From assembly GCA_030613515.1 (NCBI GenBank), contig JAUWLT010000004.1, positions 1 to 37,914 on the forward strand: 37,914 nt of DNA, given 5' to 3'. Of this stretch, positions 9,479 to 26,145 are shown piece by piece (positions within the stretch are counted from its first letter, which is position 1; each line of letters starts with the position of its first letter). The notes under the pieces are model-generated. The model did no database searches. It was not told the DNA's origin and saw nothing but the letters and a program-made list of their open reading frames with translations. This DNA comes from Desulfobulbaceae bacterium (GTDB lineage: Bacteria > Desulfobacterota > Desulfobulbia > Desulfobulbales > Desulfobulbaceae). The position numbers and the translations under genes are program-made.

Positions 9479-10822
9479 TCACATCTCGATCCCGTACAGC
9501 TTCATTTTCTGCCACAGGTTCTTTCTGCAGATGCCAAGCAGCGAAGCCGCCTTTGTCCGGTTACCCTCGGTGCTGTTCAATGCATTGAGAATGCAGTGTT
9601 TTTCTGTTTCAGCGAGGGCCTCTCCCAGAGGAATTGGTGGTCCCATTGTGTTCTGAGCTTTCTCTCCACGCAAATCTTCCGGCAGGTCGGTAACGGTAAT
9701 GACAGGATTTGGTGCCAGCACCGAGACCCGCTCCATGATGTTTCTCAGCTCCCGGACATTGCCGGGAAAGGGATAGTTCAGCAGGTAGGTCATGGCCTCT
9801 GGAGACAGGGACAAAGCAGTGTCCTTGTTGGTGCTGAACTCCAGCAGGAAATGGTTGGCTAAAAGAGCAATGTCCTCCCTGCGCTCTCTCAGCGGCGGCA
9901 TGGTCAGCGGGATGACCTGCAGCCGATAGAGTAAATCCTGGCGAAAACGACCAGCCTTGACCTCTTTTTTCAGGTCCCGTGCCGTAGAACTGAGAATGCG
10001 TACATCCAGCTTGATGGTTCTGGTGCCTCCTACCCGTTCACACTCATTCTCCTGCAGGACCCGCAATAACTTGGCCTGCAGTCCAAACGGAAGTTCACCA
10101 ATTTCATCCAGGAGCAGGGTGCCGCCATCGGCCATTTCAAAACGGCCGATTTTCTTTGCATGAGCACCGGTGAAGGCACCGCGTTCATGACCGAAGAGTT
10201 CGGACTCTATCAATCCCTCCGGGATAGCAGCACAGTTGATCCGGACATAAGGCTTGTCCGCCCTGTAACTTGCCCGATGAATTCCACTGGCTGCAAGCTC
10301 TTTTCCCGTACCTGATTCACCGGTAATCAGGACGGTTGCGTCTGTCGGGCCTGCCTGGTTGATCAGGTCAATGACCTGTCGGATGCGGCTGCTGTTGCCA
10401 AGTAGTGGAGTGTGCATCCGGCTGCAGCAGTCTTCAAGGGAGGCACAGCGGGCCTTGAACGATTGATTTTCCAGGGTCCGGTTAATGCGGATAACCAGAT
10501 CATCTATGTCAAACGGTTTCAGTATGTAATCAGTGGCTCCTTTTTTCAGGCAGCTTATGGCGTCATCCACGCTGCCATAAGCCGTCATCATGATTACATC
10601 GGTTTCGGAGGCAAGTTTGGTGATGGTCTCAAGGAGTTCTACCCCGCCAAGTTCGGGCATGCGGATATCTGAGATCACGATATGGTAGCTGCTGGCCTTA
10701 ATCTTTTCCAGTGCTTCCCTGCCGTTTACCACCGCATCAACGTTCCAGTTCTGCTGCTCCAGCCTGTCCTGGATAGTGATCCGCATGATTTCATCATCTT
10801 CTGCAAGAAGTATTCGAGCCAT
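9479..10822 (-). CDS. Sigma-54-dependent response regulator (NtrC family)
   Basis: The 447-aa product has a receiver domain (residues 3-120, phospho-acceptor Asp in VISDIRMP near residue 52), an AAA+ domain with Walker A GESGTGKE and the sigma-54 contact loop GAFTGA, and a C-terminal Fis-type helix-turn-helix (TEGNRTKAASLLGI). All parts of an active enhancer-binding protein are intact. ATG 10822 is preferred to TTG 10828. It lies downstream of the sensor kinase on the same strand, 328 bases away. It is the best candidate to bind the GTTACC-N4-GGTAAC palindromes before the three sigma-54 promoters in the nap/HAO region (inference). Confidence 0.93.
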   Translation of the reverse strand: MARILLAEDDEIMRITIQDRLEQQNWNVDAVVNGREALEKIKASSYHIVISDIRMPELGGVELLETITKLASETDVIMMTAYGSVDDAISCLKKGATDYILKPFDIDDLVIRINRTLENQSFKARCASLEDCCSRMHTPLLGNSSRIRQVIDLINQAGPTDATVLITGESGTGKELAASGIHRASYRADKPYVRINCAAIPEGLIESELFGHERGAFTGAHAKKIGRFEMADGGTLLLDEIGELPFGLQAKLLRVLQENECERVGGTRTIKLDVRILSSTARDLKKEVKAGRFRQDLLYRLQVIPLTMPPLRERREDIALLANHFLLEFSTNKDTALSLSPEAMTYLLNYPFPGNVRELRNIMERVSVLAPNPVITVTDLPEDLRGEKAQNTMGPPIPLGEALAETEKHCILNALNSTEGNRTKAASLLGICRKNLWQKMKLYGIEM

Positions 10823-10841
10823 TGTCAAGTATATGGTAAAA

Positions 10842-11150: not shown

Positions 11151-12707
11151 TTAGGCTTTCAAGGGACACTTTTGCTTGGCCGGCAGGGTGATGGTGAAGG
11201 TGGCACCCTGGCCGACCTTGCTGCCGACAATCAAGGTGCCGCCCATTTTTTCTACCTGAGCATAGCTTACAGCGAGACCCAGGCCGGTACCCACCCCTAT
11301 GTCTTTAGTTGTGAAAAAGGGATCAAAAATTTTGTCCAGAATTTCCGGGGGAATACCGGGGCCTGTATCTTCGATCCGGATTTTTATACAGTTATCCCGT
11401 GCACCGGTTCGCACCCGTATGGTTCCGCCCTTGTCACCCAGGGCCTGGATCGCATTAAGGCCGATGTTGACGATGGTCTGCCGTAGTGCTTCCACATCAA
11501 TACAGTAGCATTCGTTGAGATAGAGATCCAGCTGCAGATCGATTTTTTGCATGCGGTAACTCAGGAGCTCAAAACACTCCCGGATGACCTTGTCAACATC
11601 AATTTTTTTCAGGTCCAGGGGGGTGTTGCGGCCAAAGTTCAACAGTTGGTGCATGGAGTGCTCAATCCGGCGCAGTCCCTTGTCTATCAGAGGCAGGTAG
11701 CGCTCAACGAGCTGGGGATTATCCGGTTCCTTTTGCAGGGCCTTAACACAGTTGAGCAGACCGCCAAGGGGATTGTTGACCTCGTGCGCTATACCTGAAG
11801 TCAGGAGGCCAAGGGCAGCCATTTTTTCATTCTGAAAGGCCTGCTTTTTTGTCGTGTCCAGCGTTTCACGGGAGGTGTCGAGACGGTGGCAGAGGTCGTA
11901 GAATGTATCACTGATGCTGTCAATTTCGTCTTTGACGAGTTTGTGTTTTGGGGTGGGGACAGGCTGGTCGGGATAACGGTCCATGGTTGAAGTGAGCTGG
12001 GCCAGGGGACGGGAAACAAGGGTCGAAAAAAGCCAGAACAGCATGGCTGTAACCATCGCGATGGAAAGCAGCCCATAGGTAATGATTGCGCGGTTATTTT
12101 CGTGAATTATGTTGTCAGCCCATTTGATAGGGATAGTAATGCTCAAGCCTCCTCGGATATCACCAAGTGCGTAGCCGTGCTGGGCATGACAATTGAGGCA
12201 TGACTCCTCAATTTCAAGCGGTGCAATATAGCGGAGAATACGGCCTTCCTGACTGTTTTCAACAGAGACAACTTCTTTTTCATCTCCCTTTTCGAGTCGC
12301 AGGAGGCTTGCACGTTCAAATTCGTCCGGAGTATTGGCAGGATTGATCGGCTTGAGGCTGGTGACCCGGAACATGCACCAACCGTCCCGGGCGGCATATT
12401 CGGAGAGCTCTCTGGTGACCATGGCGGGATTACGCTGGACATAGACCTGACCGCTGGCTGAGTGGATCACCGGTGTGTTGAGAAAGGGGTTTGGCCTGGC
12501 CCTGTCACTCTGGAGCACGAAGAGACCGTGATGGTCAGCTACCCATTTGCGGGTCAGCAGTATTTGTTTGTGAAGCATTCGGGCTTGCTGCGTGGCTTGA
12601 GCGTAGATCAGATCATGCTGTTTTTGAGAGGAGTAGATAAAAAGAAAACCGTATGAAAACAACAGGATGGCTCCATTGGCAATAATAAATTTTCCCTGGA
12701 GTTTCAC
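11151..12707 (-). CDS. Membrane sensor histidine kinase with heme-binding Tll0287-like (DUF3365) domain
   Basis: The 518-aa product has an N-terminal helix (about 8-26), a periplasmic domain of the Tll0287/DUF3365 type carrying a c-type heme motif CLNCH at residues 170-174, a second helix (about 207-232), a HAMP-like linker, an H-box [12 protein letters not shown] with phospho-His near 308, and an HATPase domain ([18 protein letters not shown]). Heme-bearing domains of this class are linked to redox or gas sensing. It should phosphorylate the NtrC-type regulator encoded just downstream. The start lies 38 bases from the first GTTACC palindrome, so it may be autoregulated. Confidence 0.93.
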
Positions 12708-12744: not shown

Positions 12745-12793
12745 GTTACCTGATGGTAACATAGGCTAACGGAAAATGATACCTTCTGGTAAC
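12745..12793 (+). promoter_or_regulatory. Paired palindromic operators upstream of napD1 (set 1)
   Basis: Two 16-bp palindromes: GTTACCTGATGGTAAC at 12745-12760 and GATACCTTCTGGTAAC at 12778-12793, 33 bp centre to centre. The proximal one is centred 72.5 bp before the C of the -12 element at 12858. They also lie just upstream of the divergent sensor-kinase gene. Confidence 0.85.
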
Positions 12794-12843
12794 GATCGAT
12801 GTTTTTTTTTTTTTAACATTCTGAAAAGATGACATTTTTTAAC

Positions 12844-12860
12844 TGGAATAGTTATTGCTT
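12844..12860 (+). promoter_or_regulatory. Sigma-54 promoter P1 (napD1)
   Basis: TGGAATAGTTATTGCTT has GG and GC separated by exactly 10 bases, as in -24/-12 promoters. The predicted start is near 12870, leaving a leader of about 290 bases before napD1. In the gene-free stretch 12708-13158 I see only this promoter, its operators and the unexplained leader. Confidence 0.8.
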
Positions 12861-13158: not shown

Positions 13159-13416
13159 ATGACCATTGGCGGTGTCGTGATAACAGTTCGTCCTGATGAT
13201 CGAAGAGATGTTGAAATCGCCCTTGCCCGGTTTTCAGAATTATCAGTCTACGGGAGTGACGAACAGGGGAATATTATCGCTGTGATAAAGAGTGAGGATT
13301 CGGGATCGATTGAAAAGGTAATCAGAACAATCGAAGAAATAGAAACTGTGGATAAGGTTAACCTGGCCTATCTCAATATTGAAAATGCGCCGGATACTTC
13401 TGCCGGTACGGCGTGA
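13159..13416 (+). CDS. napD: NapD-family maturation chaperone, paralog 1
   Basis: The 85-aa product has the NapD ferredoxin-like fold pattern: a first strand GGVVITVRP, then a turn before GNIIAVIKSEDSGSIEKVIRTIEEIETVDKVNLAYL. NapD binds the twin-arginine signal of NapA in the cytoplasm and holds back export until the molybdenum cofactor is inserted. A GGAAG ribosome site precedes the ATG. It is a separate unit from the napA operon, with its own sigma-54 promoter. A second NapD follows napA, so this copy may serve another partner or provide extra chaperone. Confidence 0.8.
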   Translation: MTIGGVVITVRPDDRRDVEIALARFSELSVYGSDEQGNIIAVIKSEDSGSIEKVIRTIEEIETVDKVNLAYLNIENAPDTSAGTA

Positions 13417-13503: not shown

Positions 13504-13552
13504 GTTACCGCGCGGTAACGATGTATTGGCAGAGATGGTACCGTTTGGTAAC
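13504..13552 (+). promoter_or_regulatory. Paired palindromic operators upstream of the napA operon (set 2)
   Basis: GTTACCGCGCGGTAAC at 13504-13519 (perfect 16-bp palindrome) and GGTACCGTTTGGTAAC at 13537-13552, 33 bp centre to centre. The proximal centre is 72.5 bp before the C of the -12 element at 13617, the same geometry as set 1. Confidence 0.88.
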
Positions 13553-13602
13553 GCATGGCCGATATTTTTTGCTAACCAAAGAGTATCAAAGGAAAAAAAT
13601 AT

Positions 13603-13619
13603 TGGAATGCAAATTGCAT
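13603..13619 (+). promoter_or_regulatory. Sigma-54 promoter P2 (cytochromes-napA-napD2)
   Basis: TGGAATGCAAATTGCAT has the GG-N10-GC spacing of -24/-12 promoters, with TTGCA at -12. The predicted start is near 13629, about 90 bases before the first cytochrome gene. In the 301-base gap 13417-13717 only this promoter and its operators are evident. Confidence 0.87.
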
Positions 13620-13717: not shown

Positions 13718-14350
13718 ATGAAGATGCCTTGTTTTTTCAGTAATGCTACTGTATTACGGCTACTGGCCGTTACCTCCTTGGTGGTTGGCTTGTGCCTGCC
13801 TGCCATAGCTGCAGAGTCGGCTGATGAAAAGGATAAGCCGGAACTTAAGACCCGGCCCGTTGTCGAGGAGTGTATGCGCTGTCATGATGTCAAGATGTAT
13901 GAGAGAGAATTGAAAAGTTCTCCGCATGCTGTTGACAAAGACAACAAGCCCATCTCCTGTGAACAGTGCCATCAGTTTCACTATAGTCCGCTCACCAGCT
14001 ATTATGCACGCCATGAGTATTATGATAAAAAAATCTTTGAACCCGGCGCGTTTGATCGGCGCAAGCTGCAGACCAATGCCCGTAACGGTATCTCAAATGA
14101 AAAATGCCGGGAATGCCACAAAGATCTGTCTAAAAATGTCAAAAATGAGCCGATTTCCGAAATTGGTCAACTCTGTCATGACGCCTTTCTTGGTAAAAAC
14201 GGCATGACTCGTAAAAATTGTGCGGGCTGTCATGTAAATATGGCCCATTTGCCGGAATTTGATTGGGATTTACAGATAAATGCAGAGTTTGTAAAAAAAC
14301 TTGCTGAAAGTGAAGCGAAAGCTGCCGACATGAAGGGGGAGAAAAAATGA
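13718..14350 (+). CDS. Periplasmic tetraheme cytochrome c of the nap operon
   Basis: The 210-aa product has a signal peptide (hydrophobic LLAVTSLVVGLCLPAIA, cleavage near AIAA-ES) and four CXXCH heme sites: CMRCH, CEQCH, CRECH and CAGCH. No other membrane segment is present, so once cleaved it should be soluble in the periplasm, unlike classical membrane-anchored NapC. It probably passes electrons towards NapA. The ribosome site is GGGAGTGG, and its stop overlaps the next ATG by four bases. It occupies the napC place in the Desulfovibrio napCMADGH order, but naming it napC would overstate the match. Confidence 0.88.
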   Translation: MKMPCFFSNATVLRLLAVTSLVVGLCLPAIAAESADEKDKPELKTRPVVEECMRCHDVKMYERELKSSPHAVDKDNKPISCEQCHQFHYSPLTSYYARHEYYDKKIFEPGAFDRRKLQTNARNGISNEKCRECHKDLSKNVKNEPISEIGQLCHDAFLGKNGMTRKNCAGCHVNMAHLPEFDWDLQINAEFVKKLAESEAKAADMKGEKK

Positions 14351-14787
14351 AAAAATCAATTTCCATGAAGCGTTACGGGAAAAGGTTGGCGGCTTGTGCA
14401 GTTTTTGGCCTTTTTCTTGCCCCCTGTTTTCAACCGGCTGTTACAGCCGGCACGTTTCAACATCTGAAGGCGCCTGATTCTGCTGCTGACTGTTATGAGT
14501 GTCATAAAGCGCACACTCCAAGAGTTGCCCAGAACTGGCTGGAATCAAAGCATGGGTTTACTTTGATGAAGTGTTTTGTCTGTCATGGTCAGCCGGATGG
14601 TCAGGGCTCGATTCCCTGGGCTGTGGTACCGGATGTTAAAGCAGTCTGCCGAAAATGTCATGAACCTGCAATGATAAGGATGGAGCAAAAATTCGGTGTG
14701 GACCCGGATTGTTATCAATGCCATCCGTTTCATCAAAATTCATTGCATCATGATGCATATGGCAGGACTGAAAGTAAAACTAAGTGA
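14347..14787 (+). CDS. Second periplasmic tetraheme cytochrome c (NapM-like)
   Basis: The 146-aa product has a signal peptide (AACAVFGLFLAPCFQPAVTA) and four CXXCH sites (CYECH, CFVCH, CRKCH, CYQCH) with additional histidines near each, suiting bis-His hemes. It overlaps the preceding cytochrome gene by four bases and is followed by napA. Its position and tetraheme character match NapM of Desulfovibrio nap operons, where it is thought to replace NapB as electron donor to monomeric NapA. The NapM label is an inference from context. Confidence 0.87.
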   Translation: MKKSISMKRYGKRLAACAVFGLFLAPCFQPAVTAGTFQHLKAPDSAADCYECHKAHTPRVAQNWLESKHGFTLMKCFVCHGQPDGQGSIPWAVVPDVKAVCRKCHEPAMIRMEQKFGVDPDCYQCHPFHQNSLHHDAYGRTESKTK

Positions 14788-14826: not shown

Positions 14827-17085
14827 ATGGAACTAACCAGACGTGAAGTCCTTAAGTATGCCGCTGCATCCTCAGCAATGATGGCAATCGGTGGTCCAAT
14901 GTCATCGGTTATGGCAGCTGATGCGGGAGAACCTGATAAGTGGGTCAAGTCCGTTTGCCGCTTCTGTGGCACCGGCTGTGGTGTTATGGTTGGTGTTAAA
15001 GATGGCAAGGTGGTAACCGTCAAGGGTGACCCGAACAATCATAATGAGGGATTTCTCTGTTTGAAAGGTGCCTTGATGCCGCCGATTGTATACGCCAAGG
15101 AGCGGGTTACCAAACCCTATATTCGCAAGAATGGAGTACTCAAGCCGGCATCCTGGGACGAGGCCATGAGCCTTGTCGTTTCCAAGTTTAAAGGCGCTAT
15201 CAAGGAACACGGACCGACTTCAGTAGCCTATTATGGTTCCGGCCAGGCCCTGACCGAAGAGACCTACCTGGCTTCCAAAATCTGGAAGGCCGGACTGGGC
15301 AGCAACAACGTCGAGGGTAACCCGCGTCTCTGTATGGCTTCTGCGGTTGGCGGTTATGTAACTACCTTTGGTAAGGATGAGCCGTGCGGCAGCTATGATG
15401 ATATTGACGCAGCCACCTGCTTCTTTATTATCGGCTCAAACATGTCCGAATGCCATCCGATTCTTTTTAAACGGGTTGCTAAACGCAAACAGGCTGATCC
15501 CAACGTCAAGATCATTGTTGCTGATCCGCGCAGAACCAATACTGCCCGTATTGCTGACGAGCATCTTTCGTTCAGACCGGGAACTGACTTGGCTATTATG
15601 AATGCGATGGCCTATGTTATCATCCAGGAGGAGTTGGATAATCAGCGCTTTCATTCAAAGTATGTCACTTTTATGACCAGTGACAAGAAGAAGGTTGATT
15701 TCGATGCCTATGTGAAGTTCCTGGAAGACTACACTCCGGAAAAAGCTGCAAAGCTTTCCGGTGTTCCGGCGGATCAAATCATCAGGTGTGCCAAGATGTT
15801 TGCCGAGGCCTCCGGCTCTATGTCTTTCTGGTGTATGGGGCTCAATCAACGCATCCGCGGCGTCTGGGCCAACAACCTGGTATCCAACCTGCATCTGTTA
15901 ACCGGTCAAATCGGCAAAACCGGTGCGACACCATTCTCGCTCACCGGCCAGCCCAATGCCTGTGGCGGTGTTCGTGATACCGGCGGACTCTGTCACCTGC
16001 TGCCTGCCGGACGTCTGATCAAGAAACCTGAACACCGTGCCCATGTGGAAAAACAGTGGGGCCTGAAACCGGGCACTATTGCTCCCAAACCCGGGCTGCA
16101 CACCGTTGCCCTGTGGAACGCCTTTTCCGAGGCCAAGGTCAAGGCAATATTTGTCATTTGCACCAACCCGGCTCATTCTATGCCCAATGTGAATATTTAC
16201 ACCGAGGGCATGAAGCGCGATGACAACTTTATGGTTCTCAGTGAGCCCTTTATGGATGCCGAGACGGTTAAGTACTGCGATGTTCTGCTGCCGCCGGCTT
16301 TCTGGTGTGAGAAGAGAGGGGTATACGGCTGTTCCGAGCGGCGTTACTCCTTGTTGGACCAGTCGGTAGAACCCATGGGCGAGTGCAAACCCGATGTTGA
16401 AATTCTGTTGGATTTTGCCAAACGCATGGGGGTGGATCCCAAAGTAATCCCATTTAAAAACTCCGATGATATCTGGGAAGAATGGCGCATAATGAGCAGC
16501 GAAACTCCGTACAACTTTGCCGGTATTACCAGACCGCGTTTGGAGAAGGAGTCCGGCATTCTGTGGCCCTGTCCGACCGAGGATCACCCGGGCACCAAAA
16601 TTCGCTATGTCCGGGGAGAGGATCCCAATATCCCCAAGGACTACAAGAACAAGTATCATTTCTACGGCAAACCTGACGGCAGGGCTGTAATCTGGTTCCG
16701 TCCATACAAGGGTGCGGCCGAAGAACCGGACAACGATTACCCCATGGTGCTCAACACCGGCCGGGTTATCGACCACTGGCATACCGGTACCATGACCATG
16801 AAGGTACCGGAGTTACGTCGATCCTTCCCAAATGCGTATGTCGAGGTGAACACAGAGGATGCCAAGAAATATGGAATCCAAAACGGTGACGACGTACTGC
16901 TGGAGACCAGGCGCGACAAGATGGTCTTCCAGGCCAAGGTATCTGATGTCTGCCGACCGGGCATGGTCTTTGTCCCCTGGTTTGATGCCAAGCTGATGAT
17001 CAATAAACTGACACTGAACGCCTTTGACAAGGGCTCCAAACAGCCTGAGTACAAGATTTGTGCTGTACGGATCAAGAAGGCTTAA
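14827..17085 (+). CDS. napA: Periplasmic nitrate reductase catalytic subunit
   Basis: The 752-aa molybdoenzyme reduces nitrate to nitrite in the periplasm. It has a twin-arginine signal (TRREVLKYAA), a [4Fe-4S] motif at Cys44, Cys47, Cys51 and Cys78 (CRFCGTGC...CLKG), and the molybdenum ligand Cys in RLCMASAVGGY near residue 169, followed by FGKDEPCGSYDDID as in NapA of sulfate reducers. The length is close to the monomeric Desulfovibrio enzyme. A GGGAG ribosome site precedes the ATG. It is in an operon with two tetrahemes and napD2. No napB is present. Confidence 0.96.
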   Translation: MELTRREVLKYAAASSAMMAIGGPMSSVMAADAGEPDKWVKSVCRFCGTGCGVMVGVKDGKVVTVKGDPNNHNEGFLCLKGALMPPIVYAKERVTKPYIRKNGVLKPASWDEAMSLVVSKFKGAIKEHGPTSVAYYGSGQALTEETYLASKIWKAGLGSNNVEGNPRLCMASAVGGYVTTFGKDEPCGSYDDIDAATCFFIIGSNMSECHPILFKRVAKRKQADPNVKIIVADPRRTNTARIADEHLSFRPGTDLAIMNAMAYVIIQEELDNQRFHSKYVTFMTSDKKKVDFDAYVKFLEDYTPEKAAKLSGVPADQIIRCAKMFAEASGSMSFWCMGLNQRIRGVWANNLVSNLHLLTGQIGKTGATPFSLTGQPNACGGVRDTGGLCHLLPAGRLIKKPEHRAHVEKQWGLKPGTIAPKPGLHTVALWNAFSEAKVKAIFVICTNPAHSMPNVNIYTEGMKRDDNFMVLSEPFMDAETVKYCDVLLPPAFWCEKRGVYGCSERRYSLLDQSVEPMGECKPDVEILLDFAKRMGVDPKVIPFKNSDDIWEEWRIMSSETPYNFAGITRPRLEKESGILWPCPTEDHPGTKIRYVRGEDPNIPKDYKNKYHFYGKPDGRAVIWFRPYKGAAEEPDNDYPMVLNTGRVIDHWHTGTMTMKVPELRRSFPNAYVEVNTEDAKKYGIQNGDDVLLETRRDKMVFQAKVSDVCRPGMVFVPWFDAKLMINKLTLNAFDKGSKQPEYKICAVRIKKA

Positions 17086-17090
17086 GCGAC

Positions 17091-17399
17091 ATGGCTATAC
17101 TGGGATTTCTGATTCACACCCTGGATGAGGATGTCCGGGAAGTGGAGGCAAAGGTCAAGAAGATGCCGGAGATCACCACCTACGGTGTTCACCAGGATCA
17201 CTTCATCGTGACGGTGGCGGAAGTCCCAGCCGATGATGTTGAAAAAATAATGAACAAGATTAAGGAGTTGGATGGTGTCTTAACCACCTATACCACCTAT
17301 CTGACCATTGAAGATGAAATTGATGAAAACGGCAACCTGCAGACAAATCTCAGCTTGACTGATTTGATGCGCAAGGAACCCAAAGACCCCATCAATTAA
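17091..17399 (+). CDS. napD: NapD-family maturation chaperone, paralog 2
   Basis: The product is 102 aa from ATG 17091, preferred to the track's upstream start, which overlaps napA. Pattern: MAILGFLIHTLDEDVREVEAKVKKMPEITTYGVHQDHFIVTVAEV..., with the beta-alpha-beta layout of NapD and a charged C-terminal extension of about 25 residues. It lies 5 bases after napA, so it is the likely cytoplasmic chaperone of the NapA signal peptide. A strong terminator follows at once. Confidence 0.88.
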   Translation: MAILGFLIHTLDEDVREVEAKVKKMPEITTYGVHQDHFIVTVAEVPADDVEKIMNKIKELDGVLTTYTTYLTIEDEIDENGNLQTNLSLTDLMRKEPKDPIN

Positions 17400-17615: not shown

Positions 17616-18116
17616 ATGTTTGATCTTAAAAAACATTTTCTCCGGCCTCCTGGGGCTCGGAGTGAAAAGGAATTTCTCTCCCGCTGCCTGCAGTGCGGTC
17701 AATGCGCCCAGGTCTGCATTTTTGATTGTATCAAGATGCGGCGGGGTTTTAATTTTTTTCTGGCCGGTACACCGGAGATTAATCCCAAGGATGCCCCCTG
17801 CCATCTCTGCATGCGTTGCTCCGCCATTTGTCCTTCAGACGCTTTGCACGATGTAGCGATCGAAGATGTACGTATGGGCTTTGCAGAGCTTGACCGAAAA
17901 AAGTGCTATACTTGGAGAGAGTACCTGCTTTGCCGCAGCTGTTATGAGCGTTGCCCTATCAAATGGCGGGCTATGCGGTTAGAGAGAGGTGAGTATCCGG
18001 TGATTACCGATGAGTGTGCCGGTTGTGGGCTCTGTGAACATGTTTGTCCTGCCGATGCTATTGTGATTACGCCCACCAGGTTCCAGAGCAGCAGGGTTGA
18101 TGAGGGAGGCGCGTAA
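17616..18116 (+). CDS. Four-cluster ferredoxin, NapG/NapF-like
   Basis: The 166-aa product has four Cys-rich cluster sites: CLQCGQCAQVC, CHLCMRCSAIC, CRSCYERC and CAGCGLCEHVC. The opening RPPGARSEKEFL and the order of clusters resemble NapG/MauM ferredoxins, which pass electrons from quinol with NapH. The usual twin-arginine signal of NapG is absent, and an in-frame stop lies upstream near 17570, so the protein as read is cytoplasmic, like NapF. It overlaps the napH-like start (TAATG), so the two are coupled. I leave the symbol open between NapG and NapF. Confidence 0.88.
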   Translation: MFDLKKHFLRPPGARSEKEFLSRCLQCGQCAQVCIFDCIKMRRGFNFFLAGTPEINPKDAPCHLCMRCSAICPSDALHDVAIEDVRMGFAELDRKKCYTWREYLLCRSCYERCPIKWRAMRLERGEYPVITDECAGCGLCEHVCPADAIVITPTRFQSSRVDEGGA

Positions 18117-19768
18117 TGAAAAAACTGACACTGAAAACCTATCGCCGCACCTTCCAGATCTTTGTCGCAATATCCTTTATCATTATCCCCATTCTTAACC
18201 GTACTGATTACAGCTATGTGTATGGCAACTATTTCTCATTTCATCTGTTTGGTATAACGTTTGCCGATCCGTTGGCTGTATTGCAGTTGACTGTAAAAAA
18301 TTTCTACCTCACTGTAGATAATGCAATCGGTACCTTGCTGCCGCTGTTGCTTGCTTTCGCTCTTGGAACGGTCTTCTGTTCCTGGATCTGTGCGTACGGT
18401 CTTTTGTCGGAATGGACCCAGCAACTGAGCAGAAAAATTATGGGTCGTGGCCGTAAGGGATTACCACTCGACATGAATGGATTTCCTTTTAAAATGGCCA
18501 TCTTTACTCTTGGTTTCATCGGCTTTTTCATCTTCTCGACCACTCCGATACTGAATCAACTTTCAATGCCCGCCTGGTACACCAGGTTTTTTCAGTATTA
18601 CTTTGGTCAGGACATTATATCGCTCTGTTTTCTTTTCATTTTGGCAGTGCTGGCTTTAGAATTTTTTGCCGGCAAACGTCTCTGGTGCCGCTATGTCTGT
18701 CCCCAGTCGATTTTGATCACCTTAACTAAACAGTTCAACCGTAAGCGTATGAAGGTGGTTTTTGACCGGGAAAAATGTATCTGTAAACCAGGGCGTGAAC
18801 GGTGTGAATCTGCCTGTACTCTAAGTTTAAAGCCCAAAACACTTTATGATAGGGCTGAACTGGAATGCAGTAACTGTGGTGACTGTGTTGTGGCCTGCAA
18901 AAAAATGGGCAAGGCACTGTCCTTTGAATGGTTGCAGGGCAGAGAGTTTCTGGAGAGGACGGATTTTAAGGAAAGTATCCCTGAGCTGAAAAAAATTGGT
19001 ATTGGTCTTGCTGGGTTATCCGTGCTTATGGTCGTGAGTTATTATGTAGTTCCGGTAGTACGGAATGTAGAGTTTGCCGGAGAAAAATCGATGACCGAGA
19101 ACGCGCTGCTCAGCAATAAAAAAATCGCCTGGAATGACTCCAGGGGGGCCCAGTATTATGAACTGCTGAAGAATGGTACTCTGATCTGTGTGGGTGGTGA
19201 CTGGCCGGTGGAAGGTTTCAAGGGATGGCGGTGGGAATCCGTTGATGAAAATGGTTCCTTTAAAATTGTCAAAGAGGCTTCCCAACCAGGAATCTATACC
19301 ATTGCAAGAATGAGCAGTAAGATGGGCAGTGGTGGCCGCTTTATCATGGAACAGTATGTCGATGGTTCCATGGTTGAGGGAGAAGCTGAGGAATATCGCA
19401 TTGAAACCTATGATATTCTTGTATCAAGTCATGAAGAAATTGCTACGGTTATGGATGCTCGAGCAATCCTGAACCGGTATGCCGACGAAACCTATATTTT
19501 TGATCTCTCTGTCTTTGATCCCGGGGGTAAAAAGATCAAGAAAATTTTGACCGAGGGCGATCTGATTACCATCGAAGGCATGTTGACAGCCGTTCATCGC
19601 TGGATCAACAGTCCGGTTATCACTGCCTCAAGAGGCAAACCACCCAAGTTGCCGATTCATACCAGTATGGAGATACGTTTCCGCGACGGCCGGGTGAAAG
19701 TGATCAGTTTCGTTACTAACTCTACCAGGGACCGGAGTTCAGAGGTATTTGAGGATCTGTGGTTTTAA
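18116..19768 (+). CDS. napH: NapH-like membrane polyferredoxin with a large C-terminal periplasmic extension
   Basis: The 550-aa product is about 250 residues longer than ordinary NapH. Residues 1-320 match NapH/CcoG-type proteins: five predicted helices, the CSWICAYG and CRYVCPQ motifs, and cysteine groups CICKPGRERCESAC and CSNCGDCVVAC for Fe-S clusters. After the fifth helix (LAGLSVLMVVSYYVVPVV) comes a soluble stretch of about 230 residues, rich in beta-type sequence and probably periplasmic, that I do not recognise. NapH with NapG forms a quinol-oxidising route to NapA. In the absence of a membrane NapC, this protein may be the quinol dehydrogenase here (inference). Confidence 0.87.
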   Translation: MKKLTLKTYRRTFQIFVAISFIIIPILNRTDYSYVYGNYFSFHLFGITFADPLAVLQLTVKNFYLTVDNAIGTLLPLLLAFALGTVFCSWICAYGLLSEWTQQLSRKIMGRGRKGLPLDMNGFPFKMAIFTLGFIGFFIFSTTPILNQLSMPAWYTRFFQYYFGQDIISLCFLFILAVLALEFFAGKRLWCRYVCPQSILITLTKQFNRKRMKVVFDREKCICKPGRERCESACTLSLKPKTLYDRAELECSNCGDCVVACKKMGKALSFEWLQGREFLERTDFKESIPELKKIGIGLAGLSVLMVVSYYVVPVVRNVEFAGEKSMTENALLSNKKIAWNDSRGAQYYELLKNGTLICVGGDWPVEGFKGWRWESVDENGSFKIVKEASQPGIYTIARMSSKMGSGGRFIMEQYVDGSMVEGEAEEYRIETYDILVSSHEEIATVMDARAILNRYADETYIFDLSVFDPGGKKIKKILTEGDLITIEGMLTAVHRWINSPVITASRGKPPKLPIHTSMEIRFRDGRVKVISFVTNSTRDRSSEVFEDLWF

Positions 19769-20338: not shown

Positions 20339-20683
20339 TTAACGCTGGTTATCCTCTTTTCCAACCGGTTTTTTTCGCAGTCCGTCAATGGCGTGTCTGA
20401 TTCCCATGATCGGATTCGTTAAAAGCATCCTTGGACCTATTTCACGCATTATTTTTCGAATTGACTCCCGTTTGTCCGGCCTGTAGCAGTGGACCGGACA
20501 TTTTCCGCAGGTAGTTTTTCCATTCTGAAAGGGGCAGTTGTCCAACCGTTTACGGGCATAGGCAAGCAGTTTGTTGCATTCCGGGCATAATTCATGATTG
20601 TGATGGTGATTGAGACGGCAGTAGTGGCGGATCATCACCTCGATAGTTTTTTTTTCGCGTTGGATTCGGCTTATATTTTTCAT
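20339..20683 (-). CDS. YgbA-like nitrosative-stress protein (PF11756 type)
   Basis: The product is 114 aa from ATG 20683; the track's TTG start 11 codons upstream has no better ribosome site. The conserved pattern is visible: MIRHYCRLNHH...LCPECNKLLAYARKRLDNCPF, CGKCPVHCYRP and MREIGPRMLLTNPIMGI. The Cys groups could bind metal. In Escherichia coli, ygbA belongs to the NO-responsive NsrR regulon and supports recovery from nitrosative stress. Here it sits between the nap and HAO operons, convergent with the DUF1566 gene, which fits a role against NO made during nitrite reduction. Confidence 0.85.
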   Translation of the reverse strand: MKNISRIQREKKTIEVMIRHYCRLNHHHNHELCPECNKLLAYARKRLDNCPFQNGKTTCGKCPVHCYRPDKRESIRKIMREIGPRMLLTNPIMGIRHAIDGLRKKPVGKEDNQR

Positions 20684-20860
20684 ACGGATTTGTTTTATAG
20701 GTCGTATCTGTGACAATCTTGTAAAATTATATTTTTTTGCTATCCCGTTATTCCTGCGTAGGAGAGATGCGTTGCCTGTGATTGTTTACGAACAATCTGC
20801 CTCTATTTATGCCATAGGTCAAGTCATTCCTCTGGCAGGATGACGGAGGCAGAATAGAGT

Positions 20861-20911
20861 GTTACCAATTGGTGACACTCGAAAATGGCGGGTTCGTTAC
20901 CTGGTGGTAAC
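20861..20911 (+). promoter_or_regulatory. Paired palindromic operators upstream of the HAO operon (set 3)
   Basis: GTTACCAATTGGTGAC at 20861-20876 and GTTACCTGGTGGTAAC at 20896-20911, 35 bp centre to centre. The proximal centre is again 72.5 bp before the C of the -12 element at 20976. Apart from these sites and the promoter, I see no gene in 20684-21033. Confidence 0.87.
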
Positions 20912-20961
20912 GATGCGGGCGACTGAATGTGTAATTGCTTTAAAATACATCACTTTTTTTT

Positions 20962-20978
20962 TGGAACAGGAATTGCAT
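20962..20978 (+). promoter_or_regulatory. Sigma-54 promoter P3 (tetraheme-FeS-NrfD-HAO operon)
   Basis: TGGAACAGGAATTGCAT shows GG-N10-GC spacing and a TTGCA -12 box. The predicted start near 20988 is about 46 bases before the first gene. Confidence 0.87.
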
Positions 20979-21033: not shown

Positions 21034-21582
21034 GTGCAACAGGAGTACAAGTCAAAAAGCTACAGCCATGTGTTCAAGATCATTCTAATTTTGATCGCTG
21101 TCTTAGGTCTTGGAGTTGCTGTGCGGGCGATGGTGATGCCGAAGACGTTTGGCGAATTCGGCCACTATAGAGGCAGTGCCATTGAAGATGAGATGAACCG
21201 GCCCATCCGCAACGGAACCAATGCCTCCTGTCTTGTCTGTCACCCTTATATCAGGCAAATGCATTTGGAAGGTGTGCATAATACGGTTTCCTGCGAGTTC
21301 TGTCATGGTCCGATGGCGGATCATGTCAAAGACGGCAAGGTAATTGCCGACCTGCCCATGAAACAGGGCGAGGAAATAAAAAAACTCTGTCTGCGCTGCC
21401 ATAACCAGATCATCAGGGCTCGGCCCAAAGAGTCGATAAAGATGATATCCATGCCCCAGCATCTTGAAGAGAAACATGTTCGAATAGATCATAACTGTAA
21501 TCAATGCCATAATGTCCACGCTCCGCTGATGTGGGTAAATCAGGCCAAGGCCATTGTCGGTGCAGGGGGGGACAGCAAATGA
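21034..21582 (+). CDS. Membrane-anchored tetraheme cytochrome c
   Basis: The 182-aa product starts at GTG with a GGGAGG ribosome site. One N-terminal helix (about residues 14-32) with no obvious cleavage site should anchor it in the membrane facing the periplasm. Four heme sites follow: CLVCH, CEFCH, CLRCH and CNQCH. Together with the next two genes (exported ferredoxin and NrfD) it resembles quinone-linked NrfD complexes of sulfate reducers. It likely transfers quinol electrons to the octaheme enzyme downstream. Its stop overlaps the next start (ATGA). Confidence 0.88.
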   Translation: MQQEYKSKSYSHVFKIILILIAVLGLGVAVRAMVMPKTFGEFGHYRGSAIEDEMNRPIRNGTNASCLVCHPYIRQMHLEGVHNTVSCEFCHGPMADHVKDGKVIADLPMKQGEEIKKLCLRCHNQIIRARPKESIKMISMPQHLEEKHVRIDHNCNQCHNVHAPLMWVNQAKAIVGAGGDSK

Positions 21583-22388
21583 TGGACGTTATACAAAAAG
21601 AAATGTCCCGGGATCGAAGGGCATTTATCAAAAACGTGCTGAGCGGAACCATAGCCGGTTCACTGCTGCTGGTAATTCCGGCAGGTGCTATGGATCTGGG
21701 AAATATACCGGAACAGATTACCGGTATGCGTGATGATACGGAACCATTTATTACCAAAAGAAAATTTGCTTTTATCGTTGATATTACCCGTTGCATTGGC
21801 TGCGGTTCCTGTTGTGTGGCCGATAAAAATGAATACCAGGTTCCCGATGGCATGTATCGGACCTGGGTTGAACGGTATGTGATTGATGATGAGGATAATG
21901 TATACGTTGACAGCCCGAATGGAGGGTTGGACGGATACCAGGAGCCGCGCAAGGATATTCCACATCCCGTTCGCGACACCTTTTTTGTGCCTAAGCTCTG
22001 CAATATGTGTGAGCATCCCTCCTGTGTGCAGGTCTGCCCGGTTGGTGCAACCTATCAGACCGATGACGGCTTTGTGTTAATTGATGCCAAGCGTTGCGTT
22101 GCCTGCGGTTACTGCATCCAGGCCTGTCCCTACTCTGTTCGCTTTATCAATCCCAAGACCAAGACCGCTGATAAATGTACCTGGTGTTATCACCGGGTTC
22201 GCAAGGGACTGCTGCCTGTCTGTGTTAATGTCTGTCCGGTACAGGCCAGGAAATTCGGTGACTTGAATGATAAGGAATCCGAAGTGTACAAAATTTTGCA
22301 CCAGCCGCATGTGGTCTCGATCCTGAAACCGGGAATGGGAAATAAACCGTCGCTCCACTATGTGGGCTTACGAAGAGAGGTGGTCTAA
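21579..22388 (+). CDS. Tat-exported four-cluster ferredoxin (NrfC/HybA type)
   Basis: The product is 269 aa from ATG 21579, overlapping the cytochrome stop; the track's longer form begins inside the cytochrome gene. A twin-arginine signal (SRDRRAFIKN plus hydrophobic stretch) is followed by four cluster motifs: CIGCGSCC, CNMCEHPSCVQVCP, CVACGYCIQACP and CTWCYHRV...CVNVCP. This is the layout of the electron-transfer subunit that pairs with NrfD-like membrane proteins. The next gene is NrfD and overlaps by one base. It would relay electrons between NrfD and the tetraheme cytochrome. Confidence 0.9.
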   Translation: MMDVIQKEMSRDRRAFIKNVLSGTIAGSLLLVIPAGAMDLGNIPEQITGMRDDTEPFITKRKFAFIVDITRCIGCGSCCVADKNEYQVPDGMYRTWVERYVIDDEDNVYVDSPNGGLDGYQEPRKDIPHPVRDTFFVPKLCNMCEHPSCVQVCPVGATYQTDDGFVLIDAKRCVACGYCIQACPYSVRFINPKTKTADKCTWCYHRVRKGLLPVCVNVCPVQARKFGDLNDKESEVYKILHQPHVVSILKPGMGNKPSLHYVGLRREVV

Positions 22389-23590
22389 TGAGTCCTGAAC
22401 ATGGAGTAGCGGCAGCAACCGCCTTGACCAATTTTGTTTTCCCCAACGATCTTCATGTGCACTGGAGCCTGATGATCGTTCTGTATCCCTATATTACCGG
22501 TATTGTGGCCGGCGCATTTATAGTGTCCTCACTCTATCATGTTTTTCATATTGAATCATTGAAGCCGGTGTCCCGCTATGCCCTGATCTTTGCTCTGGCC
22601 TTTGTGGCCTTTGCCACCATGCCGTTGCTCAATCATCTGGGCCATCCTGAGCGGGCAATGAGTATGATGTTTACCCCGAGCGCCTCCTCGGCAATGGCCG
22701 GTTTCGGTTATATCTATTCCGCCTATACCGTGCTCCTTATTCTTGAGATTTTGCTTATCTATCGCCCGACCCTGGTTGCCCTGAAAAAGACTTCGACAGG
22801 CTATATGCAAAAGCTATACGGCGTCCTGACCCTGGGCAGTGACAACGTGTCGGAAAAGTCCCTGGCCCTGGATCATAAAATAATCGCCTTTCTGGCAGCC
22901 ATAGGTATTCCCATGGCCTGTACCCTGCACGGCTATGTCGGTTTCATCTTTGGCGGGGTCAAGGCTAATCCCATGTGGGCTACACCCCTGATGCCGGTTA
23001 TTTTTCTGCTGTCAGCCAGTGTCTCCGGCATTGCCGGTATTATCCTCTCCTATATCCTGATCAAGACCTTTACCCGTAAGGCCCTTGATATGGACTGTGT
23101 CCGGACATTAATCAAGTTCCTCTGGGGCTGCTTTATCCTGGACTTTGTTTTTGAGATGCTTGAGCTTTTCTCCCATTACTATATGGCGACACATCACTGG
23201 CATCAACTGCATGCTCTCTACTTTGGCCCGCTGTACGGAACCTTCTGGGTAGCCCAGGTCGGCATTTTCTCCGTCATTCCTTTTGTAGCGCTTGGCATAC
23301 TCTCCCTGGTGAAACTGCCCGATGGCGTGGTGAAGTTTTTTGGTTCCATTGTCTCATTGATGATCCTTATTCAGGTTCTGCTCATGCGCTGGAATGTTGT
23401 TATCGGCGGCCAGTTGATGTCCAAAAGCGAACGGGGCCATACGGTTTTTCATCCGGAATGGTTTGAGAAGGAGGGTATTCTGGTTTCAATTATTATCATG
23501 ATTCTGCCTATCGTTTTTCTCTTTCTTCTCAGCAAGGTTTTTCCTTTCTGGCTTGATGATGATCCGGCAGCAAATAAGCAGTCTGTCTGA
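22388..23590 (+). CDS. NrfD-family integral membrane subunit
   Basis: The 400-aa very hydrophobic product has about ten predicted helices, typical of the NrfD/PsrC/HybB superfamily, which binds quinol in the membrane but carries no redox cofactor. Examples of helices are YPYITGIVAGAFIVSSLYHVF, ALIFALAFVAFATMPLL and the late IIIMILPIVFLFLLSKVF. The four-residue DDDP tail is cytoplasmic or periplasmic. Co-transcription with the exported ferredoxin and tetraheme cytochrome points to a menaquinol-oxidising complex. Whether it pumps protons cannot be said. Confidence 0.9.
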   Translation: MSPEHGVAAATALTNFVFPNDLHVHWSLMIVLYPYITGIVAGAFIVSSLYHVFHIESLKPVSRYALIFALAFVAFATMPLLNHLGHPERAMSMMFTPSASSAMAGFGYIYSAYTVLLILEILLIYRPTLVALKKTSTGYMQKLYGVLTLGSDNVSEKSLALDHKIIAFLAAIGIPMACTLHGYVGFIFGGVKANPMWATPLMPVIFLLSASVSGIAGIILSYILIKTFTRKALDMDCVRTLIKFLWGCFILDFVFEMLELFSHYYMATHHWHQLHALYFGPLYGTFWVAQVGIFSVIPFVALGILSLVKLPDGVVKFFGSIVSLMILIQVLLMRWNVVIGGQLMSKSERGHTVFHPEWFEKEGILVSIIIMILPIVFLFLLSKVFPFWLDDDPAANKQSV

Positions 23591-23767: not shown

Positions 23768-25363
23768 ATGAAACATTTGAAAAAAACATTTTGTATTGCA
23801 GTCCTTGGGCTTTTTGCTGCCGGTTCGGCCTTTGCCACCACTGAGCAGTCAAAAAATACCCAGGACGAGGCGGCTAAAGCAATAAATGTGAAATGTGTGA
23901 ACTGCCATTTGAAAGAGAACGTTTCCCTGGTGAAACAGTGGCAGCATTCACCCCATGCAGCGGCAAAAGATGGTCAGGTCGGCTGTTATAACTGTCATGC
24001 CGCCAATAAAGGCGATGAACTTGGCTATGAGCATGAAGGTGCATTTATCAAGACCATTCTCTCGCCCATTGATTGTAATTTTTGCCATGAGCGCGAAGTA
24101 AAAGAGATGGTTAACTCGCATCATGCCACTGCCGGTGAAATTATGGCTTCACTGGATAACGTGGTTGGTGAGGTTATCTGCTCCATGGAACCCACCAAGG
24201 CCGATGTTGTCAACGGCTGCTGGCAGTGCCATGGCTCAGTGATTAAGATTAAACGTGGTAAAGACGGCAAGCCGCTTCATAATGAAGCCAAGGCCGTTAT
24301 GATCGATTACATGACCTGGCCCAATACCGGCATTGGCCGGATCAATCCGGATGGTTCCAAGGGTTCCTGTATGGCCTGCCATTCCAAGCATTCCTTCCGT
24401 TCCTCGATTGCCCGTCAGCCTGAGAACTGCGGAAAATGTCATCTTGGCCCGGATCATCCGCAGATGGAGATCTATAACGAGTCTAAGCATGGTATTGCCT
24501 ATAATGCTTCTGTCCGTGAAGGCGGAGCCAACGGCATGAATATCCTAAAGAATGGATCCTGGGTATTAGGTAAAGACTATTATTCAGCTCCTACCTGTTC
24601 TACCTGCCATATGGGTGCTTATGTGAAACTGGACGGTGGAATTGCTCCGAATACCCATAACGTTGGTGATCGTATTTCCTGGACCCTGCGTCCGAAAGTT
24701 TCCGTTAAATTGAATCGTGTAATTTTTAACGACGGCACAGTTGCAGATGTACCTGGTGATATTCCGCCTATGGCCGGACAGGAAGCCAAGTATAAAACCT
24801 ATGTACTGAAAGACGGCAAACTGAAAAAAACCATGGCCACCAAGCAGGTTGCCAAGGTTATCTCTTGGGAAGATCGTCGTAACAACATGAAGGGCGCATG
24901 TAAATCCTGTCATGGTATGCAGCAGGTGGATAACTTCTACACCCAGTTTGATTCTCTTGTTGTTACCTATAATGAGAAGTTTGCCAAGCCGACCAAAATG
25001 CTGTACGGAATGGCAAAGAAGGATGGCCTGATCCATGGTTCTACCTTCCATACCGAACTTGGTTGGATCTGGTGGGAGATCTGGCATCATGAAGGTCGTC
25101 GTGCCCGTCACGGCGCTGCCATGCAGGGGCCGGATTATACCCATTGGCATGGAATGTACGAAGTTGCCAAGCACTTCTATTTTAAGTTTATCCCCGAGCT
25201 GATGCATCTTGCAGAGGCTAAAGGTATGACGGAGAAGTACGAGAAGGTTATCAACGAGTTGCTTGCCAAACCTGAGCATGCCTGGTACAAAGCAGGCTTT
25301 GATACTGGCCAGATGGAAGCTATCAAGGCTGAGGCTGCCGAACGTTACGGAGACAAGAAGTAA
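23768..25363 (+). CDS. Octaheme cytochrome of the hydroxylamine oxidoreductase family
   Basis: The 531-aa product has a signal peptide (IAVLGLFAAGSAFA) and exactly eight CXXCH heme sites: CVNCH, CYNCH, CNFCH, CWQCH, CMACH, CGKCH, CSTCH and CKSCH. The HAO-like C-terminal region includes WEIWHHEGRRARHGAAMQGPDYTHWHG. HAO relatives in nitrate-ammonifying bacteria (epsilon-HAO type) reduce nitrite to hydroxylamine or ammonium, while nitrifier HAO oxidises hydroxylamine using a Tyr crosslinked to heme P460. I could not align that Tyr with confidence. No NrfA is in the window, so this is probably the nitrite reductase. GGAGG ribosome site; a terminator follows. Confidence 0.9.
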   Translation: MKHLKKTFCIAVLGLFAAGSAFATTEQSKNTQDEAAKAINVKCVNCHLKENVSLVKQWQHSPHAAAKDGQVGCYNCHAANKGDELGYEHEGAFIKTILSPIDCNFCHEREVKEMVNSHHATAGEIMASLDNVVGEVICSMEPTKADVVNGCWQCHGSVIKIKRGKDGKPLHNEAKAVMIDYMTWPNTGIGRINPDGSKGSCMACHSKHSFRSSIARQPENCGKCHLGPDHPQMEIYNESKHGIAYNASVREGGANGMNILKNGSWVLGKDYYSAPTCSTCHMGAYVKLDGGIAPNTHNVGDRISWTLRPKVSVKLNRVIFNDGTVADVPGDIPPMAGQEAKYKTYVLKDGKLKKTMATKQVAKVISWEDRRNNMKGACKSCHGMQQVDNFYTQFDSLVVTYNEKFAKPTKMLYGMAKKDGLIHGSTFHTELGWIWWEIWHHEGRRARHGAAMQGPDYTHWHGMYEVAKHFYFKFIPELMHLAEAKGMTEKYEKVINELLAKPEHAWYKAGFDTGQMEAIKAEAAERYGDKK

Positions 25364-25455: not shown

Positions 25456-26145
25456 ATGTACCGAGACAAAAAAAGAAAAACAATGCGGTTGGTAACGTTT
25501 GTTTTTGCTGCTTTGCTGGCAATGACTCTTTCTGTTTATGCTGAGGATAAAAAAGTAGAAACGCTGTTAGATCAAGTTATATCCTTAAAGCTTGGTTTGA
25601 ATGGATATGCTGTTGGTGAAAAACTTTCTGCTGACCAGAAAAAAACAGCTGAAAAGAATCCTGTGCAAGGTGATGCCTACGAGGGAACCTATAAGTTTAA
25701 TGCTGAGGAGCTGATTGTCGTTGTTGATGCAAAAACAGACAGAATTCTGGCCATGTATCAGCAAAAAAAAGATGCTGATAAAGAACAGTTTAAGGCAATG
25801 GTTGCCGGCCTGATGGATCATTTTGATACTCCCACCACCATGGCTCATGGCAAGATGCTGTACTGGGCATTTAATAAACACGGGGCTGTTTCAGAAGATG
25901 TTTTTAATGCCTCAAAAAAGATAAAGGAGACCAGTGATCTTGGGATTATAGCCACTGTTAAATTTAGTTCTGAGCTTGATATAACTCCTGATTTAACTGT
26001 GAAGCAAGAAGGCATGGAAGAAAAAAATGACGGAGTTAAAAAAGAAGGAAAGAAAGAAGAACAAACACCAACCGGAGCAATCTATTTTATTATTACTTCT
26101 GACCTTCTGGTCAAAGAGTTCATGGCCGATCACACTCAAGAATAG
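25456..26145 (+). CDS. Exported protein of unknown function
   Basis: The product is 229 aa from ATG 25456 (GAGG ribosome site); ATG 25483 is an alternative. A basic start and hydrophobic stretch (VTFVFAALLAMTLSVYA) give a signal peptide, so the mature protein is periplasmic. It has no Cys, no heme sites and no recognised domain. A Lys/Glu-rich run (NDGVKKEGKKEEQ) lies near the C-terminus. Base composition is more AT-rich than its neighbours, hinting at a different history. It follows the HAO terminator and precedes purA. I do not recognise it. Confidence 0.7.
   Translation: MYRDKKRKTMRLVTFVFAALLAMTLSVYAEDKKVETLLDQVISLKLGLNGYAVGEKLSADQKKTAEKNPVQGDAYEGTYKFNAEELIVVVDAKTDRILAMYQQKKDADKEQFKAMVAGLMDHFDTPTTMAHGKMLYWAFNKHGAVSEDVFNASKKIKETSDLGIIATVKFSSELDITPDLTVKQEGMEEKNDGVKKEGKKEEQTPTGAIYFIITSDLLVKEFMADHTQE

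Follow-up and report, generated by a model that had tools for sequence, protein, structure and literature searches.

Background

By converting nitrate to ammonium, sulfur-cycle bacteria retain fixed nitrogen in sediments. Most of what is known about how they control this ammonification comes from NarXL/QP and the NrfS-NrfR system of Desulfovibrio. The latter activates nrfHA under nitrite stress via sigma-54, and sites have also been predicted before nap (PMC5701242, PMC3333781, PMC4641369, PMC6456213). The signal to which it responds has been described as unresolved (PMC5701242). NrfR also binds LurR-type sites, whose published form resembles GTC-N10-GAC (PMC6456213). A second body of work concerns the sensor domain itself. 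DUF3365 has been redefined as a single Cache fold that holds heme c covalently (sCache_heme), with CXXCH present in about 99% of its members. A signalling member that lacks the axial Cys was shown to bind NO tightly while forming no stable oxy complex, and is in these respects NO-sensor-like (February 2026 preprint, PMC12889525); nitrite, nrf and nap are not mentioned in the text of that preprint. In Geobacter GSU0935, either Met60 or water serves as the distal heme ligand; the domain binds NO, and a switch linked to redox state has been proposed (PMC8396549).

Here we describe a predicted heme c sensor kinase of this class, its presumed partner regulator and a set of predicted sigma-54 promoters in a 37,914-nt stretch of a Desulfobulbaceae genome (contig JAUWLT010000004.1, positions 1 to 37,914), referred to throughout as the window.

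A probable heme c sensor kinase and its presumed partner

The kinase gene (11151-12707, minus strand, GTG start) encodes 518 residues arranged as a first transmembrane helix, a periplasmic sCache_heme domain, a second transmembrane helix and a kinase core, which Pfam resolves into HisKA (residues 299-361) and HATPase_c (residues 404-511), with His308, within AHEVNNP, as the phospho-acceptor. The initial annotation had proposed a Tll0287/DUF3365-like periplasmic domain containing CLNCH, and the Pfam scan bears this out: PF11845 matches with E 3.1e-23 and 83.3 bits against a gathering cut-off of 24.1, the domain spans residues 34-193 (12129-12608, minus strand), and CLNCH, a covalent heme c motif, occupies residues 170-174 (12186-12200, minus strand). 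CXXCH is invariant in all 50 of the 50 aligned homologues, so its occurrence here is not a matter of chance. An AF2 model of residues 1-222 (mean pLDDT 93.5) gave Tll0287 (5b82) as its top Foldseek match, with E 8e-6, and the heme c sensor domains of Geobacter, 3b42 (E 2.6e-4) and 3b47, also near the top; the single Cache fold of the sensor agrees with all three. Taken from sequence, the kinase very likely carries covalent heme c in its periplasmic domain, and the genome encodes a cytochrome-c assembly protein.

No widely conserved Cys beyond the CXXCH pair was found in the kinase lineage by alignment, outside which the helix bearing the axial Cys of Tll0287 lies; on this evidence the lineage, like the signalling class, lacks the axial Cys that characterises the stand-alone redox proteins. 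Position 59, mostly His across homologues and otherwise Gln, Met, Tyr or Asn, is a possible candidate for the distal heme ligand. Such a residue would also suit a sensor in which ambient potential sets the oxidation state of the heme iron and thereby kinase activity, rather than NO or nitrite doing so by binding, as has been proposed for Geobacter GSU0582 and GSU0935. These two proteins are among the closest solved structures to our model, and their proposed ligand switch pairs His144 with Met60 or water (PMC8396549). Yet the same Geobacter domains bind NO (PMC8396549), as does, tightly, the signalling member that has been tested (PMC12889525), and we consider a redox sensor unlikely, though deserving of serious attention.

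On the minus strand, the kinase gene is followed by one (9479-10828) for an NtrC-type response regulator, the presumed kinase partner; the earlier placing of the kinase upstream of a sigma-54 activator is thus correct when read along the direction of transcription. The NtrC-type architecture of the regulator is complete, comprising REC with Asp54, a sigma-54 AAA+ domain bearing the GAFTGA motif, and a helix-turn-helix of Fis type (HTH_8). The kinase-regulator pair is kept in relatives at loci L006, L007, L009, L010, L116 and L117, and the recognition helix of the regulator is alike within the lineage, in the species where its sequence was read. One rpoN is present in the genome.

Nap and octaheme genes beside the kinase

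The kinase is divergent from napD1, as first annotated; this chaperone gene (13159-13416, PF03927) lies on the opposite, plus strand, as do the genes that follow it. These are two tetraheme cytochromes, one NapC/NirT-like (13718-14350) and one in a NapM-like position (14347-14787); a napA-like molybdopterin nitrate reductase (14827-17085), whose best match, NF010055 NapA, falls below that model's curated cut-off; napD2 (17058-17399); a napG-like ferredoxin (17616-18116); and a napH-like protein that is considerably extended at its C terminus (18116-19768). Further along the plus strand stands an operon of a tetraheme cytochrome that is hydrophobic over a stretch at its N terminus (21034-21582), an NrfC-like Fe-S protein (21531-22388), an NrfD-like membrane module (22388-23590, PF03916) and an octaheme cytochrome with eight CXXCH motifs (23768-25363), whose PDB neighbours are 4qo5 and hydroxylamine oxidoreductases. 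Since NrfA was not detected in this genome, which is 85% complete, the octaheme protein is a probable nitrite (or nitrite/hydroxylamine) reductase, a direction and a substrate that we infer. In Desulfurivibrio, octaheme cytochrome genes are up during nitrate ammonification (PMC12142623).

Several other features of this region may be recorded. A single nap cluster holds both napD genes; the napH-like protein is 550 residues long, of which about 270 extra C-terminal residues have no Pfam match; the octaheme gene is followed on the plus strand (25456-26145) by a gene for a secreted-looking protein of 229 residues, also with no Pfam match; and tatBC genes neighbour the cluster.

Three predicted sigma-54 promoters with paired palindromes

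A sigma-54 matrix with weights set by hand was run along both strands of the whole window, position by position. Its three top-scoring sites are all intergenic and on the plus strand: CTGGAATAGTTATTGCT (12843-12859), before napD1; TTGGAATGCAAATTGCA (13602-13618), before the cytochrome-napA operon; and TTGGAACAGGAATTGCA (20961-20977), before the tetraheme/NrfCD/octaheme operon. Counted over the whole window, the plain sigma-54 consensus is no more frequent than chance, so the evidence lies in the rank and position of these sites, together with the palindromes that accompany them, and not in their number. Ahead of each predicted promoter stand two GTTACC-N4-GGTAAC palindromes resembling upstream activating sequences (UAS). 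The first pair consists of GTTACCTGATGGTAAC (12745-12760, exact) and GATACCTTCTGGTAAC (12778-12793, one mismatch), the second of GTTACCGCGCGGTAAC (13504-13519, exact) and GGTACCGTTTGGTAAC (13537-13552, one mismatch), and the third of GTTACCAATTGGTGAC (20861-20876, one mismatch) and GTTACCTGGTGGTAAC (20896-20911, exact). The spacing within pairs is 33, 33 and 35, and the gap from pair to promoter element is 49 nt at all three promoters.

This arrangement is confined to the window within its own genome. The exact palindrome has three copies in 2.67 Mb, all in the window, and pairs occur only at the three window promoters; other one-mismatch palindromes are singles, in or between unrelated genes. 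A composite score for pair and promoter reaches 50-52 in the window, whereas the maximum was 39.1 over 100 first-order Markov sequences and 35.7 over 925 kb of other loci. The window values are in-sample, since the weights for sigma-54 and for the composite were chosen by hand once the motif was known. This matching set of three predicted DNA control sites is newly mapped here for the lineage.

The genes behind these promoters bear on the nature of the signal. The predicted regulon consists purely of nitrate and nitrite genes, which would make a substrate-linked signal the more natural one and counts against the redox sensor considered above; we favour a nitrogen oxide over redox as the signal. 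Divergent from promoter 3 is a YgbA_NO family gene (20339-20716, minus strand; PF11756, E 3e-39). The family is named for response to nitrogen oxides, and the position of this gene lends mild support to an NO-related signal. In L010, too, nrfHA has a member of this family nearby, and in genome G281 (L268) nrfHA adjoins a YgbA-like frame, recognised by eye.

The layout in relatives

Four relatives that were not used in defining the pair and promoter layout, L006, L008, L010 and G281, carry it as well. The composite score is 50.5 before napD1 in L006, 52.1 in L008 at a site some 250 bp ahead of the kinase gene itself, 46.5 before nrfHA in L010 and 45.1 before nrfHA in G281, even though about 100 kb separates that last site from the G281 kinase-regulator pair. 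Incomplete forms were also found: L117, which has nap and nrfHA, contains a palindrome pair with no -24/-12 element in register, and L007 and L116 have one near-site only, before the kinase itself. L006 lacks a counterpart of the second unit of the window: its napD1 and cytochrome gene, which flank that unit in the window, stand close together.

The units could be real and yet be read by another NtrC-type activator, leaving the heme kinase and its neighbour to control something else. A motif-pair search of 395 genomes does return matches beyond our own genome, near amtB/glnK/glnA-like genes and GAF-AAA activators. Since similar TACC-N4-GGTA pairs stand near other sigma-54 activators, the motif alone does not name its regulator, and the match between the window regulator and its sites is itself a prediction. 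Against this, the layout accompanies the kinase-regulator pair in L006, L008, L010 and G281 and is missing from 57 other loci, and the recognition helix of the regulator is conserved together with it. We judge control by another activator to be improbable, and the neighbouring regulator to be the better candidate.

The pairs near amtB/glnK/glnA-like genes (names assigned by eye) belong to other Desulfobacterota families (L251-L259), and we rejected them as sites of the same regulator because a different, GAF-AAA activator is present there. The placement of the genes themselves also varies. In L116, L007 and L268 the kinase-regulator pair is separated from nap and has DHQS and Band-7 genes as its neighbours, and the nrfHA genes of G281 adjoin a tatB-like gene, as the window cluster does; together these placements suggest one ancestral region that has been rearranged.

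Sensor phylogeny and linkage to ammonification genes

Sensors were collected by similarity and not by their neighbouring genes, and a tree of 73 was inferred by a quick method. The window kinase falls within a clade of eight (support 99), in which an NtrC regulator is paired with every member whose region is available, and this is nested in a clade of 37 (support 83). A napA, nrfA or octaheme gene lies within 10 kb of 25 of the 37 members, compared with 1 of 32 other sCache_heme proteins, a count that left out four loci fetched by nrfA. The corresponding Fisher p of 1e-8 is only a guide, because the clade was delimited from the tree itself and because its members are related and inherit their neighbours. 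Where at least 5 kb is available on both sides, the fractions are 15/19 and 1/24.

In many other members of the larger clade the NtrC regulator is replaced by a short one of about 230 residues, probably of NarL type. At L130, L133, L158, L157, L134 and L162, kinases of this clade with a short regulator stand beside an octaheme gene, some of them with nap genes also, and the relatives L010 and L117 adjoin nrfHA.

Relationship to NrfS-NrfR

As a reference for NrfSR we used four nrfHA loci of family f43, taken as Desulfovibrionaceae, whose identity as NrfSR rests on gene order. All four have a sCache_heme kinase and an NtrC regulator nearby, divergent from nrfHA, and NrfS is thus very probably of the same heme sensor class as the window kinase. 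Given this shared sensor class, the common sigma-54 logic and the similar kinase and regulator pair, one might suppose that the window pair is simply the Desulfovibrio NrfS-NrfR orthologue, already described. The sequences speak strongly against it: the f43 sensors fall outside the 37-member clade (AU p 4.6e-5 against a common clade), and the f43 regulators, at 31-35% identity, are no closer to the window regulator than are other NtrC proteins. On these two grounds orthology was rejected, and we regard it as highly improbable. The two f43 kinases that were scanned are, in addition, hybrids with REC and Hpt, the recognition helix of the f43 regulators differs from that of the window regulator, and the published site type appears to be another one. 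The GTC-N10-GAC pattern has one copy in the window, at 2926, far from nap, which is a weak test since the pattern was seen in just one of the four reference loci. The linkage of the clade, together with the position of NrfS-like kinases outside it, indicates a distinct lineage whose role resembles that of NrfSR.

A model for the control of ammonification

That a regulatory system exists here is well supported. The specific scheme that we propose runs from a nitrogen-oxide signal through the heme kinase and the NtrC regulator to the paired palindromes and three sigma-54 promoters, and we think that as a whole it is probably correct. Its domains, heme motif, gene pairing, promoter and UAS layout and linkage are read from sequence; from these we infer heme attachment, the binding of the regulator to its sites, the direction of the signal and the ligand. 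One covalent heme c would sit in the periplasmic Cache domain between the two transmembrane helices. Periplasmic NO or nitrite, the most likely ligands, would reach the heme and change its coordination, and this change would be relayed via the second transmembrane helix to the kinase core. Phosphate would then pass from His308 to Asp54 of the regulator, which would bind the paired GTTACC-N4-GGTAAC sites and drive sigma-54 polymerase at the three promoters. The nap genes and the octaheme nitrite-reductase operon would be raised together, so that a build-up of nitrite is avoided.

More tentatively, and with about as much doubt as confidence, we suggest that kinases of this lineage may constitute a widespread, undescribed ammonification switch in Desulfobacterota, recruited apart from NrfS. 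It would have at least two output types, one NtrC-type and sigma-54-dependent and the other using the short, probably NarL-type regulators, and through either of them periplasmic NO or nitrite would be signalled to nap, nrfHA or octaheme genes. With its small and exact predicted regulon of three promoters, a heme c kinase such as this offers a clean system for the question of nitrite versus NO versus redox, and sCache_heme sensors, to which PMC12889525 assigns no physiological role, would gain a concrete one.

Comparison with known systems

The sensor class itself is already known, and the window kinase conforms to it: PF11845, CXXCH, the single Cache fold, two transmembrane helices, a fused signalling module and the lack of an axial Cys are shared with the sCache_heme proteins of PMC12889525 and with GSU0582, GSU0935 and Tll0287, in the last feature with the signalling class. 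What differs is that the window lineage is tied to ammonification genes and to a predicted sigma-54 regulon. The initial annotation had put forward a candidate heme c sensor of nitrate and nitrite ammonification. The tie to ammonification stands, through the matching sigma-54/UAS regulon and the linkage of the lineage to nap, nrfA and octaheme genes; novelty in kind does not, given PMC12889525 and the precedent of NrfS-NrfR. The kinase lineage and its regulon nonetheless appear undescribed in the open-access literature that was searched.

With NarX/NarQ-NarL/NarP the window system has in common periplasmic sensing that controls nap or nrf, but its kinase has a heme c Cache domain and its output is through NtrC and sigma-54. 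The Pfam scan of the kinase gave no match to the NarX-type helical sensor domain, and the partner is NtrC-type, not NarL-type, in keeping with the earlier claim that the system is unlike both NarX/NarQ and NsrR. The best-matching models for the kinase core and the NtrC regulator are those of ZraS/ZraR and AtoS/AtoC, although the scores are far under the curated cut-offs and the sensor domain and targets are different. The nearest functional likeness is to NrfS-NrfR, in the two-component, sigma-54-dependent control of nitrite, and probably nitrate, reduction, and in the sCache_heme kinase of the NrfSR-like loci. The two of their kinases that were scanned are hybrids. The window system is distinguished by its predicted GTTACC-N4-GGTAAC site and by predicted targets that are nap and octaheme genes; and while NrfS-NrfR adjoins nrfHA divergently, the window kinase diverges instead from napD1.
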